A stretch of DNA of 12,813 nt from assembly GCA_948466105.1 (NCBI GenBank), contig CAOJZR010000006.1, positions 1 to 12,813 on the forward strand. Direction: 5' to 3'. Made by a program: the position numbers and the translations under genes. The notes beneath the pieces were generated by a model, which searched no databases, was not told where the DNA came from, and worked only from the letters and a program-made list of their open reading frames with translations. Of the stretch, positions 3,405 to 12,813 are shown piece after piece. How positions within the stretch are numbered: the stretch's first letter is position 1; the number at the start of each line of letters is the position of its first letter. Source of the stretch: an uncultured Bacillota bacterium (GTDB lineage Bacteria; Bacillota_I; Bacilli_A; RF39; UBA660).

Positions 3405-3725
3405 TTATTTTTCTAACCAAAGTTTATCAAAAGTTATACTTCCATTACCAGCATAACCGACAACAACAAAATTATATTTTGCATTTTTATCTAAATTAGA
3501 TATATTAAGTGAAGTAACACCTGCTTCATATAGTTCATCCGCCCTAAACATACTCATTAGACTACTTTTAAAACTATTTCTTCTCGCCTTATCTATTATA
3601 TTTAACGTAATTGATACTGCGATTAGTGCAATTACAGCCAGTATTACTATTACCGCTAATAGTTCTATCAAAGTAAAAGCTATACTAGAACTGTATACCC
3701 CCCCCCCAGTATTGACCATTAGCAA
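3405..3725 (-). CDS. Small type IV pilin-like protein, frame broken from its start by a G10 tract
   Basis: The frame encodes a class III (type IV) prepilin-like protein. FTLIELLAVIVILAVIALIA is the classic N-methylation motif and assembly helix, with Glu at mature position 5. After cleavage at Ala-Phe only about 90 residues remain, short for a pilin. Ala at -1 in place of the usual Gly is less common but tolerated in some systems. In this frame the only starts are TTG at 3725 and ATG at 3719, neither with a ribosome binding site. The good start, ATG 3756 with AAGGAG upstream, is one base out of frame and is joined to the pilin frame only if the G run at 3698-3707 has 9 or 12 bases. So the gene is either phase-variable and OFF here, or a decaying pseudogene, or carries a homopolymer error. 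No pilus assembly ATPase, platform protein or prepilin peptidase is in the window. Confidence 0.75.
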   Translation of the reverse strand: MLMVNTGGGVYSSSIAFTLIELLAVIVILAVIALIAVSITLNIIDKARRNSFKSSLMSMFRADELYEAGVTSLNISNLDKNAKYNFVVVGYAGNGSITFDKLWLEK

Positions 3726-3756
3726 ACATAATATCTTTCCTGTTCTTTATTTTCAT
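3685..3756 (-). other. Truncated leader reading frame of the small pilin (G10 state)
   Basis: Translation from the ATG at 3756, which has AAGGAG 11 bases upstream, reads 23 codons (MKIKNRKDIMFANGQYWGGG, then IQF) and stops at TAG 3687-3685, just before the pilin motif. With one G fewer the same start would read through VYSSSIA into FTLIELL, giving a prepilin leader of about 26 residues with a basic start. This supports ATG 3756 as the true start of the pilin gene. Confidence 0.65.
3698..3707 (-). repeat. G10 homopolymer (C10 on the plus strand), candidate slippage tract
   Basis: Ten consecutive G occur on the coding strand inside the N-terminal coding region of the pilin gene. In a genome this AT-rich a G10 run is very unlikely by chance, and I noticed no other G or C run near this length in the window. 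Poly-G tracts of 8-12 at the 5' end of surface genes are the standard contingency-locus design in Campylobacter, Neisseria and others. Confidence 0.85.
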
Positions 3757-3800
3757 ACAATTAACAACTCCTTATCTTTAAACTGTTATTTACTATTTAT

Positions 3801-3829
3801 ATAATATCATAAAGTCAAAAAAAAGTCAT
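3801..3829 (-). promoter_or_regulatory. Putative promoter of the small pilin gene
   Basis: On the minus strand, ATGACT (3829-3824) and TATTAT (3806-3801) are 17 bases apart, with an extended TG before the -10. The spacer begins with a long T run (T8 at 3824-3817, the first T belonging to the -35). The transcript would have a leader of about 40 bases to the ATG at 3756. The match is moderate. Confidence 0.4.
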
Positions 3830-5471: not shown

Positions 5472-6344
5472 TTATTCAGTTACAGTAATAACTCTTTTTT
5501 TAGTTGTAATATTACCTGATTGGTCACTAGCAATATAAGTAATAACATACTTTCCTGGTTGATTGGCTAGTTGGCTTTTTATTTCTAATTTTGGTGTAAT
5601 ATTTGAGTTATCACTAATAGTTACTCCTTCATTGGGATCAAAAGAAGCAACTTGCGCAAGCGAAATGGTTATGTTTTCTGGTATTTCTAATATTGGAGGA
5701 GTTGTATCATTTATAATAACAGTTCTAATAGCTTTGGATGCATATTTACCATCACTTACAGTATAATTTACACTATAAGTTTGGAAAACAGTTGTATCAA
5801 TAGAAGCTATTTCTGACTTGTTTACAAGATATTGAATATTAATACTAGAGGTTATATCTCCACCAGCAGCAGTTCTAGCAATGGCGCCTATTTCATGATA
5901 TGGAGTGTTTATTTCTACATATTCAACATAATTGCCATTTAAAACAAGGACAGGATTATTTTCATCAATAGTATCATAATCTGCAGTGCCGCTATCTTCA
6001 ATAATATTATATAAATAAGTATTATTGTGTTTTTTTATTTCAATTACTAAATCATTTGGAATAAGTTCCTCAGTGATAGGATTTGATATATTATAGCCAA
6101 TATATTTAGATCTTTTTAGTTGTCCTAAAGTTAAAGTTATAGTCTGTTCATCATCAGGAAGAAGTTCCGCATTCTTATAAGCCCAATTTTGAGCTGCTTT
6201 TTTAATTTGTTCTAATTGTACTTTATAGGCATCTTCTTTTCCTTTATTTACTAGCTTTGTTATCTTTGGTGTTACTATAACACTAATAAGAGCAAGAATA
6301 ATTAAAACAGCCATTACTTCTATCAATGTATATCCTTTTTTCAT
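5472..6344 (-). CDS. Type IV pilin-like protein with two C-terminal Ig-like domains
   Basis: This is a 290-residue prepilin with a minimal leader MKKG, cleavage expected between Gly4 and Tyr5, then YTLIEVMAVLIILALISVIV as the hydrophobic assembly helix with Glu at mature position 5. A pilin-like helical and globular region follows (about 30-125). The C-terminus has two beta-rich repeats resembling the DUF5011/HYR class of bacterial Ig-like domains. The first spans about 130-212 (NPVLVLNG, then GDITSSI and YSVNYTVSDG). The second spans about 214-290 (TTPPILEIPENITI, then PGKYVITYIASDQSGN and RVITV). Such domains typically sit in surface adhesins, so a minor or tip pilin that presents a binding module outside the cell is a reasonable inference. 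There are no cysteines. The gene is monocistronic, with a good promoter and its own terminator. Confidence 0.85.
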   Translation of the reverse strand: MKKGYTLIEVMAVLIILALISVIVTPKITKLVNKGKEDAYKVQLEQIKKAAQNWAYKNAELLPDDEQTITLTLGQLKRSKYIGYNISNPITEELIPNDLVIEIKKHNNTYLYNIIEDSGTADYDTIDENNPVLVLNGNYVEYVEINTPYHEIGAIARTAAGGDITSSINIQYLVNKSEIASIDTTVFQTYSVNYTVSDGKYASKAIRTVIINDTTPPILEIPENITISLAQVASFDPNEGVTISDNSNITPKLEIKSQLANQPGKYVITYIASDQSGNITTKKRVITVTE

Positions 6345-9073: not shown

Positions 9074-9103
9074 AAAAAAAAGCCATTATGATTATTTGGC
9101 TTT
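9074..9103 (-). terminator. Intrinsic terminator after the FMN-binding lipoprotein gene
   Basis: AAAGCCA (9079-9085) and TGGCTTT (9097-9103) form a 7-bp stem with an 11-base loop, followed on the minus strand by a T run (8 T counting the end of the arm). The stop codon of the lipoprotein gene lies in the loop. It closes the flavin cluster. Confidence 0.7.
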
Positions 9104-9538
9104 ATTAATTGCTTCAGTTAAAGCTTCAGTTAAAGCATTTATTTTTATTGTGCATCCACTAACAGTATCGGTTTTTCCATCTTCATTTAGTTTTAAAAAA
9201 TCAATTCCTTGCTCTTTAACTACTTTATCTTCTAATAGTTTTATTTGTTCATGCCATTCTAAAGTCGCATTAGGATTAGACTTCATATTATAATTATCTC
9301 CTAATGTTTTCTTAGTTGTTACAATTCCATCTTTTGTATATGTAGTATCTAAATAAACAGCTTTAATAGTTCCTTTAGCATCAACATATACTACAGCTGT
9401 TGCAGTATTTAAGCCACCACCATAATTATCAACGGCACTTCCAAAATATAAACCTTCTTTATAGTTGCCTTTTACTTTTTCACAACCTGTTAATAAAATG
9501 ATACTTAAAGCTAAAAAAATAACTAATACCTTTTTCAT
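9092..9538 (-). CDS. FMN-binding-domain lipoprotein, PplA-like
   Basis: This is a predicted surface lipoprotein carrying covalent FMN as an electron carrier. The signal peptide has 18 residues, with lipobox LTGC and lipidated Cys19. One FMN-binding domain (about 26-146) follows: EGLYFGSAVDNYGGG, VYVDAKGTIKAVYLD, and the flavinylation motif DTVSGCT at 124-130, where Thr130 would take FMN through a phosphoester bond made by ApbE. Cys129 replaces the usual Ala of SGAT. Listeria PplA has two such domains and a longer linker; this 148-residue form has one. GGAGG stands 6-7 bases before the ATG. The apbE-, eetA- and eetB-like genes upstream support a role in flavin-based electron transfer outside the membrane. 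An RnfG-like role is less likely because it is a lipoprotein and no other rnf gene is seen. Confidence 0.88.
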   Translation of the reverse strand: MKKVLVIFLALSIILLTGCEKVKGNYKEGLYFGSAVDNYGGGLNTATAVVYVDAKGTIKAVYLDTTYTKDGIVTTKKTLGDNYNMKSNPNATLEWHEQIKLLEDKVVKEQGIDFLKLNEDGKTDTVSGCTIKINALTEALTEAINKAK

Positions 9539-9563
9539 TTTCTTCCTCCATTTTTCTAACCTA

Positions 9564-9592
9564 ATTATACATGATTAAAAAAAAATTTACAA
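9564..9592 (-). promoter_or_regulatory. Putative separate promoter of the FMN-binding lipoprotein
   Basis: TTGTAA (9592-9587) and TATAAT (9569-9564) on the minus strand are 17 bases apart. The spacer contains a T9 run. It overlaps the stop of the upstream Gx-family gene and would let the lipoprotein be made in excess of the membrane components. Confidence 0.5.
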
Positions 9593-10084
9593 TATATTTT
9601 TAAATTGATTGACTAGTTCTTTACTTATTAACCCAGTTAATATACCAGTTGGAACAGAAAGCAACATAATATATGGTAGATAATATATAGCACCATTTCC
9701 TGTAAAAAGAATTGCAACTAATATTTGACCAACGCTATGACAAAGAGAACCTATAATACTAACACCTATTAAAGAAAAAAAGTTGGTTTTTTTTACTAAA
9801 GTCATAACTAACAAAGAAAATATTGCTCCGCTTAGACTAAATAAAAAAGTTATGCTAAAAACACCAGTTCTTAAAATTCCTACTAAAAAAACACGACTAA
9901 CTGATAAATATATAGCATCTTTAAAACCATATATATAAAGTGTAAGTAAAATAATGATATTCGCAAGTCCTAATTTAAAACCTGGAATCATCCCATTAAA
10001 AATGGGCAAAAAACTTTCTATAATATTTAAAACAACACTTAAAGCAAGTAACATTGATAATCTTGTAAATTTTCTTAATTCCAT
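9587..10084 (-). CDS. Gx transporter family / heptaprenyl diphosphate synthase component I-like membrane protein, EetB-like
   Basis: The 165-residue, strongly hydrophobic protein has about five membrane spans and the family opening LSMLLALSVVLNIIESFLP followed by GFKLGLANIIILL. It belongs to the family often named heptaprenyl diphosphate synthase component I or Gx transporter. In Listeria flavin-based electron transfer the family member is EetB, needed for extracellular electron transfer and thought to act in the membrane. Here it follows the NusG-II gene by 3 bases, with GAGG before its ATG, which fits the EetA-EetB pairing. The old name is misleading: no component II prenyltransferase is present. 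Whether it moves flavin or quinone species or conducts electrons cannot be read from sequence. Confidence 0.85.
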   Translation of the reverse strand: MELRKFTRLSMLLALSVVLNIIESFLPIFNGMIPGFKLGLANIIILLTLYIYGFKDAIYLSVSRVFLVGILRTGVFSITFLFSLSGAIFSLLVMTLVKKTNFFSLIGVSIIGSLCHSVGQILVAILFTGNGAIYYLPYIMLLSVPTGILTGLISKELVNQFKNIL

Positions 10085-10087
10085 TTT

Positions 10088-10438
10088 CTACCTCACTACT
10101 GTATCTATTTCTTCATTAGCTATTTTAATAACGATTTTATTTGGTAAACAAACTATTGTCTCATAACTTTTTTTTATATACCCTTGACGGCTACATATAT
10201 GATAAGGACTATTTTCTGCTACAACTCTAACACCATGGCTATTTACTTCAATTTTAACTTTTCCTTTAGCTCCTTCAACTTCATATATACCATTTTGCTT
10301 TAAATCAAGTTGAAGTATAGCTTTAGAATCATAATAGACAATAGCTTTATTTCCTTCTTTTTTTTTAAACCATATAAGCATTATTAAAGATGATATTATT
10401 AAAATAGTTATTATTAAAATGACATCACTTTTCTTCAT
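10088..10438 (-). CDS. NusG domain II-containing protein, EetA-like
   Basis: The 116-residue protein has an N-terminal membrane anchor (about 6-24) and one NusG domain II outside the membrane. The family signature is plain: SPYHICSRQGYIKK (77-90) and ETIVCLPNKIVI (93-104), with Cys82 and Cys97 at the conserved positions. Such proteins are the EetA component of flavin-based electron transfer loci and also neighbour rnf or flavin genes in other anaerobes. The start lies inside the end of apbE (14-base overlap), and the stop is 3 bases before the EetB-like gene, so the three are translated from one message. No transcription-factor role is implied by the domain name. Confidence 0.88.
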   Translation of the reverse strand: MKKSDVILIITILIISSLIMLIWFKKKEGNKAIVYYDSKAILQLDLKQNGIYEVEGAKGKVKIEVNSHGVRVVAENSPYHICSRQGYIKKSYETIVCLPNKIVIKIANEEIDTVVR

Positions 10439-11435
10439 ATTTGTCTATTCCTTTTGAGGTAATTATTTGATTATCATTGGTATACCAGATGGCTTCAGCT
10501 TCATAATTTTCAAGAAATTTTAAACCTTTATCAATATCCATTAAAAATAATGTTGTTGATAAGGCATCAGCTAAGGCACTGTCTTTGGTTATAACAGTTA
10601 CGCTTTTCATATAAGCACTTGGATATAAAGTAGTAGGATCAATAATATGAGAATATATTTTACCATCGATTTCATAAAAACGTTCATAGCTTCCACTTGT
10701 AACGACACTTATATTTTCAGCGTTTATAACATCAATTAGCCCATCATCTTTATTTGGACTTTGAATGCCAATTCTATATTTACCTTTGTTATAATGTTTA
10801 CCAACTAAAACATTACCACCAGCATTGATGATATACTTATCAAGGCCTATACTATTTAAGTATTCACCTACGATTTTAGTTGTATAGCCTTTACTAATGG
10901 CACCTAAATCAATATTAGGACGATTATTTAAGATTTGACCATCTTTGAGAATAATTTTTTTAATATCTGTATTTTGTTTTTGTAATTCTTCTTTTGTTGG
11001 AAGTGAAGTGCCTTTGTCACGATATTTTTTCCAAATATCGGTAATACTACCCATATTTATGTTTAATAAACCATTACTTTTATCATAAAAGTCAAGACCA
11101 TAGTTAATTAAATCGTAAAGTTTAGTATCTATTTTTAAATATTTATCTTTATCATAGTTGGTATTAATATAATAAATATTGATTATATCTTTATAATTAT
11201 TATATTTATCACTTAACATGTGGTACTCTTTATAGATGTTTTCTATTTCGTTTAAAGCTGTTTGAGCTTTTTCTTTGTTTTTAGAAAAGATGCGCACATT
11301 TATATAAGTGTCCATGTAATAAAGATCTCTTGAAAATTCTTGTTGTTTTTGCCTATTTATTAATAAATAAGTAATTAAAATAATTATAATTAATAAAAGA
11401 AGATAATTAATATATTTTTTTAAAAATCTTAACAT
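10425..11435 (-). CDS. apbE: Membrane-anchored FAD:protein FMN transferase (ApbE family, FmnB-like)
   Basis: ApbE transfers FMN from FAD to a Thr or Ser of secreted proteins, leaving a covalent phosphoester-linked flavin. The protein has 336 residues, normal for the family. Residues 10-26 form an uncleaved membrane anchor with no lipobox Cys, unlike the lipoprotein form in Listeria. Core motifs are IDLGAISKGY (175-184), INAGGNVLV (203-211), VVTSGSYERFY (244-254), SHIIDP (262-267) and ALADALST with metal-binding Asp290 and Thr294. DPTTLYP has Leu where Gly is usual (DPxTGYP). It is first in the flavin cluster and its probable substrate is the lipoprotein encoded at the other end. The start ATG has its ribosome binding site 26 bases upstream, with a hairpin between. 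Confidence 0.93.
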   Translation of the reverse strand: MLRFLKKYINYLLLLIIIILITYLLINRQKQQEFSRDLYYMDTYINVRIFSKNKEKAQTALNEIENIYKEYHMLSDKYNNYKDIINIYYINTNYDKDKYLKIDTKLYDLINYGLDFYDKSNGLLNINMGSITDIWKKYRDKGTSLPTKEELQKQNTDIKKIILKDGQILNNRPNIDLGAISKGYTTKIVGEYLNSIGLDKYIINAGGNVLVGKHYNKGKYRIGIQSPNKDDGLIDVINAENISVVTSGSYERFYEIDGKIYSHIIDPTTLYPSAYMKSVTVITKDSALADALSTTLFLMDIDKGLKFLENYEAEAIWYTNDNQIITSKGIDKYEEK

Positions 11436-11624: not shown

Positions 11625-12728
11625 TTAGTTTGGACGAATTATAAATTGATTAGAGATTGTATCGTTTGACTGTTTTAATTCATCAACAAAAGGTTTTAAA
11701 ATACTATAATCATATCCAACAGCTTTTAAGCGCTCTATCAATTCCTCGTTTTCTCCCCATTTACCATCAGCTATTTCTTTAATTATTTCTTCTTTTGGTC
11801 TTAATGCATTAAAAGGTATGTTATAATTCATTACATAAGTAACATAAGTTTGTATAGTAATATAATCGTATCCAGCTTCTTCTAGAGCTTTTCTACGTAT
11901 TTCTCCATCTCCCCATTTACCATAAATAACTATTTCCATAACAATTTCTTCTAAAGACTTTAAAGACAATTCAGTATTTTGCTCAATCGTTTTTTGTGTT
12001 TCTTTTATTAATAAGTCCTTTTTATCAAAGGAACTTCCTTCTGATAGAGTTGTCTTTGGTTCTTCATCTAAAAGGCTATATTCTAGATTTAAAAATGGAG
12101 TTGTATCTAAAGTGGTTAATAACTTAGGAGCAGATGTTGTGAATAATACTCCTCCTAATATTGCTCCTAAGACTCCTGCTTTTAAGGTATCTAAAACCAT
12201 AAATTTTCTAAGCTTCTCCCCAAACGTATTTGGTCTATATTCTCTAATTAACTCAATAATTTCTTCTTTAGAATTGGTAGAGAAAGCAGTAGATGGCATC
12301 ACTCTACCCTCTTTTATATAAGTTATTAATTCTTCTTCTAAGGAAGTGACTTTTTTTTCTAGTTTTTCCATTCTTTTTTCTAATTCGTTAACTCGTTTGT
12401 CAAAGGTTTTTCCCATTCTTTCTTCTGATTTGTTAGTTCCTTTTTTGAAGGGTTTCTTTTTATCTGCTCTACTAGTAAAATTGGCCGTAATTTTACTTGA
12501 TTTTGTACTTCCTAAGGAAATATTTAAATGACTATCTTCAATAATTTGTTTTAAAGCAGCTAGTAATTCCTTTTTATGACTAGAATTTAAATTTGATAAT
12601 TCCTTATATAACAACTCAATCTCATCAATTACTTCACTGTAATCATATTCTAATCCTTCTTCTTTTGCCATAAGAATTTCACTAAGTTTAGCTAATTTTC
12701 TTTTTAAAATCATAATCTCTGTATCCAT
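11625..12728 (-). CDS. Membrane protein linking a cytoplasmic coiled coil to two Cpl-7-like cell-wall-binding repeats
   Basis: I know no named gene with this layout. From ATG 12728 it has 367 residues. The N-terminal 170 are charged and helical, with a Lys-rich patch and a clear coiled coil at about 103-141 (heptads in VNELEKRMEKLEKKVTSLEE). One membrane span follows at about 183-199 (AGVLGAILGGVLFTTSAP), preceded by basic residues, so the N-terminus is predicted inside. After an acidic linker come two repeats of about 40 residues, GKWGDGEIRRKALEEAGYDY and GKWGENEELIERLKAVGYDY. They match the CW_7 (Cpl-7) pattern GKWGNG...R...L..AGYDY, known to bind muropeptides. ATG 12749 is possible, but AAGG 5 bases before 12728 is better. 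The frame is open to the right edge of the window, so a start outside cannot be excluded. Confidence 0.8.
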   Translation of the reverse strand: MDTEIMILKRKLAKLSEILMAKEEGLEYDYSEVIDEIELLYKELSNLNSSHKKELLAALKQIIEDSHLNISLGSTKSSKITANFTSRADKKKPFKKGTNKSEERMGKTFDKRVNELEKRMEKLEKKVTSLEEELITYIKEGRVMPSTAFSTNSKEEIIELIREYRPNTFGEKLRKFMVLDTLKAGVLGAILGGVLFTTSAPKLLTTLDTTPFLNLEYSLLDEEPKTTLSEGSSFDKKDLLIKETQKTIEQNTELSLKSLEEIVMEIVIYGKWGDGEIRRKALEEAGYDYITIQTYVTYVMNYNIPFNALRPKEEIIKEIADGKWGENEELIERLKAVGYDYSILKPFVDELKQSNDTISNQFIIRPN

Positions 12729-12813
12729 AGCAACCTTTTTTAGTTTCATTTGTAATTTTTTACATAATGGTTTTATTTTGACTAGTTTATCCTTGGGACT
12801 AAAATCTTGATTC

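Follow-up and report, generated by a model that had tools for sequence, protein, structure and literature searches.

A candidate phase-variable poly-G tract at the start of a type IV pilin-like gene is one copy of a repeated leader cassette in an uncultured Bacillota bacterium

The window, that is, the whole stretch of DNA analyzed here, comprises 12,813 nucleotides of contig CAOJZR010000006.1 (assembly GCA_948466105.1) from an uncultured Bacillota bacterium of the UBA660 family. All window features described below lie on the minus strand. A type IV pilin-like body (3405 to 3698; VYSSSIA-FTLIELLAVIVILAV through LWLEK) is preceded by a poly-G tract of ten residues (G10; 3698 to 3707), and the tract is preceded by a leader ORF (MKIKNRKDIMFANGQY; 3708 to 3756) whose ATG (3756 to 3754) lies 49 nt from it. 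The Shine-Dalgarno sequence AAGGAG is found at 3768 to 3773, and both it and the leader start were assigned from the sequence and by comparison with other copies of the cassette. A putative promoter (3801 to 3829) was read as ATGACT (3829 to 3824), 17 nt and an extended -10, TGA-TATTAT (3806 to 3801); next after it comes a block, ATAAATAGTAAAT, that is common to the cassette copies. In an alignment of 11 copies, the -10 side and AATAGTAAAT were largely conserved, whereas the -35 was not. The tract thus lies inside the leader ORF and not between -35 and -10, and the pil1-type terminator hairpin between tract and gene is absent, because the pilin of the window copy is fused to the leader directly after the tract.

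At the present tract length the frame of ATG 3756 ends at a TAG (3687 to 3685), with the pilin body in another frame, and the copy therefore reads OFF. Leader and pilin frames fuse at tract lengths that are multiples of three; 10 and 11 fail. These features had been described in an initial annotation of the sequence, namely a minus-strand G10 between an ATG with AAGGAG and the pilin motif, a stop of that ATG frame at the TAG, and fusion by G9 or G12 but not by G10 or G11; re-reading of the coordinates and rechecking of the arithmetic confirmed all of them. The annotation also held that a G10 run is hard to explain by chance in such AT-rich DNA, and run counts agreed: 0.01 such runs are expected in the window, and 1 of 200 dinucleotide shuffles contained one.

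The pilin body matched PF07963 at 21.3 bits, just above the cut-off of 21.2, and TIGR02532 at 22.1 bits (cut-off, 16.3). By these matches a class III N-terminal motif with Glu5 and a hydrophobic segment is present. The residue at prepilin position -1 was Ala rather than Gly (SSSIA-FTLIE) in all five copies compared, as it is in the database relatives P0005, P0006, P0009, and P0012; Gly at this position is described as critical in the accessible text of PMC4471445. One PF00437 (T2SSE) ATPase was detected in the MAG, as a partial match above the cut-off (91.6 bits).

Several other genes lie in the window. A second pilin-like gene (5472 to 6344; MKKGYTLIEVMAV...) has a C-terminal Bact_surface_Ig-like domain and is without a G9+ run. 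The region from 9092 to 11435 resembles a flavin-based extracellular electron-transfer cluster, with an FMN_bind lipoprotein (9092 to 9538; Pfam), a membrane protein, a NusG_II protein (10088 to 10438; Pfam), and an ORF (10425 to 11435) that we take to be ApbE-like. CW_7 is a domain of phage lysozymes, and a protein with a CW_7 repeat (Pfam) is encoded at 11625 to 12749.

The pilin frame is also open from a TTG at 3725 and an ATG at 3719 to 3717, and the database protein P0001 is the window pilin ORF begun at ATG 3719. If translation started there, the pilin would be read at G10 (MVNTGGGVYSSSIA-FTLIELL), the copy would be ON, and the upstream ATG would open an overlapping leader. We consider this very improbable. 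Both alternative starts are without a Shine-Dalgarno sequence. An equivalent of ATG 3719 occurs in 6 of 20 cassette copies and in two of the four G10 pilin copies, and it is missing from C57 and C17, both of which are G10 with the same pilin start. Moreover, in another copy, C78, it is the upstream ATG whose frame continues into the pilin.

The source MAG (732 kb, 69.5% complete, 124 contigs, several of them ending near tracts) is the one genome of its genus among those compared. On simple composition (27% GC), ∼0.02 G9+ runs are expected in the whole MAG; 11 were found (eight G10 and three G9), and all 11 occupy the same position of one repeated cassette, with the order conserved -10 side and AATAGTAAAT, AAGGAG, ATG, leader, poly-G, TATA. 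A search of the MAG with cassette DNA gave 22 matches at E < 1e-4, and the 20 that cover the leader or promoter were compared. By a loose pattern, 18 of these 20 have a Shine-Dalgarno-like site and an ATG; C19 has lost its leader ATG. Alignment of related copies, a check that the initial annotation had proposed, placed the leader ATG and the G run at one cassette position. ATG and tract were separated by exactly 49 nt in all but one of the 12 own-genome copies with an ATG and a run of at least G6, despite many substitutions, the exception being C44 (52 nt). The 12 leaders have diverged in sequence without indels (pN/pS of 0.57 over 66 pairs). The tract follows the start codon and precedes most of the ORF.

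The same pilin follows the tract in C6 (the window copy), C15, C57, C78, and C12, and in C17 up to the contig end; in C44 (G7) a different pilin follows in frame. In C6, C15, C57, and C17 the tract is G10 and the pilin is out of frame by one, and in C12 an interrupted tract gives the same offset and hence the OFF frame. In C78 (G9) the frame is open from the ATG through the contig end. Five of the seven pilin-bearing copies are thus offset by one and two are in frame. An intact pilin immediately behind the tract is missing from C2, C19, and C77, which also show no strong hairpin (-3.2 to -5.4); C70 has a stop codon before the contig end, and in C1, C9, and C45 the contig ends at the tract. Pilin bodies of C6, C15, C57, C78, and C12 (60 codons) gave dN/dS values of 0.02 to 0.17 in 10 of 10 pairs. 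These five bodies are under purifying selection though four of them read OFF, and so they do not behave like free pseudogenes.

Such selection is hard to reconcile with the proposal that the window gene is a decaying duplicate, or that its tract length is an assembly or sequencing error and there is no switch. Decay does occur among the copies of this genome, since C2, C19, and C77 are decayed or without a pilin and C12 is interrupted, and several of the 124 contigs of the assembly end near tracts. However, tract position and leader length are fixed over 11 copies, dN/dS is low, and the same design recurs with other leaders in the relatives G134 and g136, so that we give decay or error very little credence.

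Database proteins were also consulted. In P0037 (MKNKKFKNETFANGNLGGGIMKSKNAFTLIELL) and P0307 a single frame joins leader, GGG, and pilin, and the P0037 leader has FANG, as does the window leader; both were compared as protein sequences, so their GGG need not be encoded by poly-G. Among 120 listed of 1405 matches to the in-frame C78 product, eight of which were inspected, there was no near-identical copy but the window's own. DNA pattern scans of named collections returned one match each, a Treponema lipoprotein gene and a viral contig, both judged unrelated from sequence.

In relatives within the family, poly-G tracts were found in three wirings. In the first, as in the window, the leader is fused to a long ORF. 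This arrangement was found in G134, where the fused ORFs encode pilin-like proteins (L145, L160, and L171) and others that look secreted, and in g136, a related genus represented by four genomes, where they encode membrane-anchored-looking proteins, one with a Laminin_G_3 domain. Leaders of g136 (G240, G377, G317, and G135) carry CTCCCAAC shortly before the poly-G; base pairing between the two is conceivable in the RNA. In L172 and L175 of G134, near contig ends, another shared sequence replaces the leader start, as an assembly chimera or by recombination.

In the second wiring, leader and poly-G are followed by a terminator (7 of 7 copies in G207, 5 of 5 in G346/G052, and L093 of G081). Two of the frames end ∼5 and 21 nt after the tract (10 in L093), and the third stops at 66 to 139 nt, past the hairpin 5' arm, which lies within ∼34 to 67. 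The five copies of G221 and G104 (hairpins of -7.7 to -13.6 kcal/mol) likewise have one frame that extends to the hairpin, in L198 no farther than the 5' arm. L096, L100, and L193 do not fit an attenuator, since even their longest frame ends ahead of the hairpin or where it begins. The ORFs downstream of attenuators are surface-protein-like, and that of L316 has BspA-type leucine-rich repeats. In the third wiring the tract occupies a promoter spacer: TTGAC stood within 18 nt upstream of the tract at 15 of 30 loci (one per genome), versus 64 of 6000 random positions. Many poly-G tracts beside -35-like or -10-like sequence were seen in G131, G137, G060, G083, and G132 (L113 to L140 and L176 to L180), ahead of similar secreted-looking genes.

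Tract states were classified in these relatives. For g136, 62 places were found, 10 near contig ends were not fetched, and 2 duplicates were dropped; of the 50 examined, 6 were cut or short and were left unclassified. The remaining 44 comprised 5 in frame (counting L283, in which two frames score alike), 28 one G long, and 11 in the other state (chi-square p of 6e-5 versus equal thirds); L290 starts at a contig edge. Runs ranged from G7 to G11, and downstream ORFs were mostly hundreds of codons long in all three states. G134 has 48 tracts of G9+ in ∼1.2 Mb, 37 of them copies of one leader. By run length, 0 of 37 copies were in frame, 35 were one long, and 2 were two long (p of 5e-7 versus one third), in a search that requires TTAT after the run, so that copies such as L142 fall outside it. 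Separately, 41 fetched tracts were reduced to 36 by removing 5 with identical flanks, and all 27 distinct copies with a whole leader and a long ORF were one G long; the other nine lack a whole leader (L149, L170, L172, and L175), are cut by a contig end (L163 and L164), are of promoter type (L146 and L154), or are internal (L144). Among attenuators (G207, G346/G052, G221, G104, and G081), 2 of 18 had the long frame, 14 were one long, and 2 were in the other state; these copies and single copies elsewhere came from G9+ runs, and shorter in-frame ones may be missing. Single copies in other relatives were in frame in L185, L192, L200, and L204, and both other states occurred in G239 and G175. Copies thus fall in and out of frame with tract length, both within the window genome (G9 and G10) and in g136, and tracts commonly rest at one G more than the active length. 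This offset is not set by run length alone, as the modal run is G9 in G134 but G10 both in g136 and in the window MAG.

The main rival to slippage is constant recoding, in which ribosomes shifting by +1, or RNA polymerase slipping on the poly-G, would allow the one-G-long tract to be read through, so that the genes would not be OFF. It would account for intact ORFs and for the dominance of the one-long state across several genera with different run lengths (27/27 in G134, 28/44 in g136, and 5/7 in the window genome, including C12). A fixed offset was suspected of being an ascertainment artifact, because only G9+ runs had been searched while the in-frame length in G134 is G8; when shorter runs were searched, the count remained 0/37. 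On the other hand, g136, searched without this bias, was mixed: 16 of its 44 copies show a different state, and most of their ORFs are similar in length. In addition, C78 is in frame unaided, as are L185, L192, L200, and L204. A quadruplet-decoding tRNA-Gly was also considered; none of the 32 G134 tRNA loci inspected (30 + 2; 34 tRNA matches) could be typed as tRNA-Gly of any kind. From the tract states we regard constant recoding as unlikely, and slipped-strand switching as the better reading of the tract.

G9+ runs occurred in 80 of 145 family genomes (one per genus). The pattern ribosome site-ATG-leader-G9 matched 67 of 386 family genomes (46 of 150 genera), and most family members are therefore without it. 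A reversed control pattern matched in ∼57 of 386 genomes by hand count, nearly as often, so the pattern by itself proves little; the control frequency probably arises because ribosome sites come after promoter-type tracts. Repeated leaders within one genome are better evidence (G134, G317, G135, G377, and G207, with few control matches). In a phylum sample, 19 of 392 genomes matched, 18 of 373 outside the family and 1 of 19 inside it, the latter being the source MAG; among the outside matches are small genomes from a single family (f4) whose leaders resemble MKRKLMLIGGG.

Neisseria poly-G switches are separate genes, not a duplicated leader cassette, and belong to a different phylum from the window system. 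They resemble it, as far as the accessible sources go, in that the frame in which a surface gene is read depends on a homopolymeric G run within its coding sequence: HmbR and HpuAB are poly-G frame switches in the available text of PMC3786947, and gonococcal pilC is one by a reference title in PMC4471445. The initial annotation had cited poly-G precedents in other phyla, which stands, but close ones also exist in the Gram-positives Bifidobacterium breve and Streptococcus gallolyticus. In B. breve UCC2003, according to the accessible part of PMC9187656, a G-tract splits the first gene of the pilus clusters (bbr_0113 and bbr_1889) into two ORFs; the annotated lengths at both loci are OFF, and one omission fuses the ORFs (ON). 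The same source reports that most cultured cells carried one G above the annotated length at bbr_0113 and that base omission exceeded addition in mice, and it mentions G-tracts in promoter spacers. As far as that text goes, the window system is alike in having poly-G near a pilus gene start, OFF as sequenced and one omission from ON. It differs in that the B. breve pili are sortase dependent, in another phylum and at two loci, whereas here type IV pilin-like genes and ∼12 leader-cassette copies are involved; slippage was measured in B. breve and is only inferred here.

In S. gallolyticus pil1 and pil3, as described in the accessible text of PMC3894217, leader-ORF repeat length decides if the ribosome reaches a terminator before the pilus genes. 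This pil1 anatomy corresponds, so far as that text goes, to the attenuator class of G207, G346/G052, and G081, and their leaders (L187, L189, L232 to L236, L312 to L315, L320, and L093) likely represent a poly-G version of it; the S. gallolyticus repeats are GCAGA, not poly-G, and the window copy is without a terminator. From what these sources make available, poly-G frame switching is already known in Neisseria and B. breve pili, and the attenuator wiring is known from pil1. What appears to be new is its occurrence on type IV pilins, in an uncultured family apparently within Bacilli, and at this number of loci; the two listed MtaB homologues that carry an organism name, at 59% identity, are assigned to a Bacilli bacterium. 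No report of poly-G switching in this family, nor of such switching acting on Bacillota type IV pilins, was found in the partial literature covered, and neither a duplicated leader cassette nor three wirings in one family turned up there, in a search that left subscription journals and preprints mostly uncovered.

We interpret the window G10 as a slipped-strand phase-variation switch that would by default be OFF, one G above the in-frame length, and judge from the sequence comparisons that this reading has a probability of roughly 0.78. The repeated cassette would supply transcription and ribosome binding, and its short leader ORF would enter the poly-G, where replication slippage may alter the tract by a single G within the population. 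In frame, leader and pilin would give one fused prepilin, leader-GG-pilin, to be exported and assembled; out of frame, translation would end a few codons past the tract. Since the commonest resting length is one G above in-frame, a single contraction would switch the gene ON, and a bias toward contraction may exist. The anatomy and its recurrence, the length differences among paralogues, the three phases in relatives, and the selection on OFF copies were observed directly, and slippage is favored because it fits the mixed states, tract position, and selection. The on/off pilin switch, OFF here, that the initial annotation had proposed is thereby supported, but not as a single switch: the window gene is one copy of a multigene system.

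Some observations weigh against a switch. The 0/37 of G134 is more uniform than random switching of each locus on its own would give, short of a strong preference for OFF; a MAG consensus represents the majority state, however, and would show every locus as OFF even if each were ON in some minority of the cells. The tract of C12 is interrupted and should hardly slip, and this copy is in the OFF frame. Homopolymer lengths in MAGs can be wrong, and the accessible text of PMC9187656 cautions about wrong G-tract lengths. The prepilin has Ala instead of Gly at -1, and the lengths compared are those of paralogues or copies in assemblies, with one genome for the genus.

A broader proposal, which we offer tentatively and hold to be possible rather than probable, is a family-wide default-OFF poly-G layer comprising dozens of surface genes per genome in some members, three wirings, and a rest length one G above the active one; slippage would sample a few genes at a time, or the one-long tract would be read by +1 recoding. 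If the switch interpretation is right, some members of this uncultured family, such as G134, would run a large poly-G phase-variable surface repertoire, and database entries for such genes would be truncated or begin at the wrong start, as with P0001. The family would also be a place to study why the resting tract is one G longer than the active one, and three outputs of such a tract could be compared within a single lineage.
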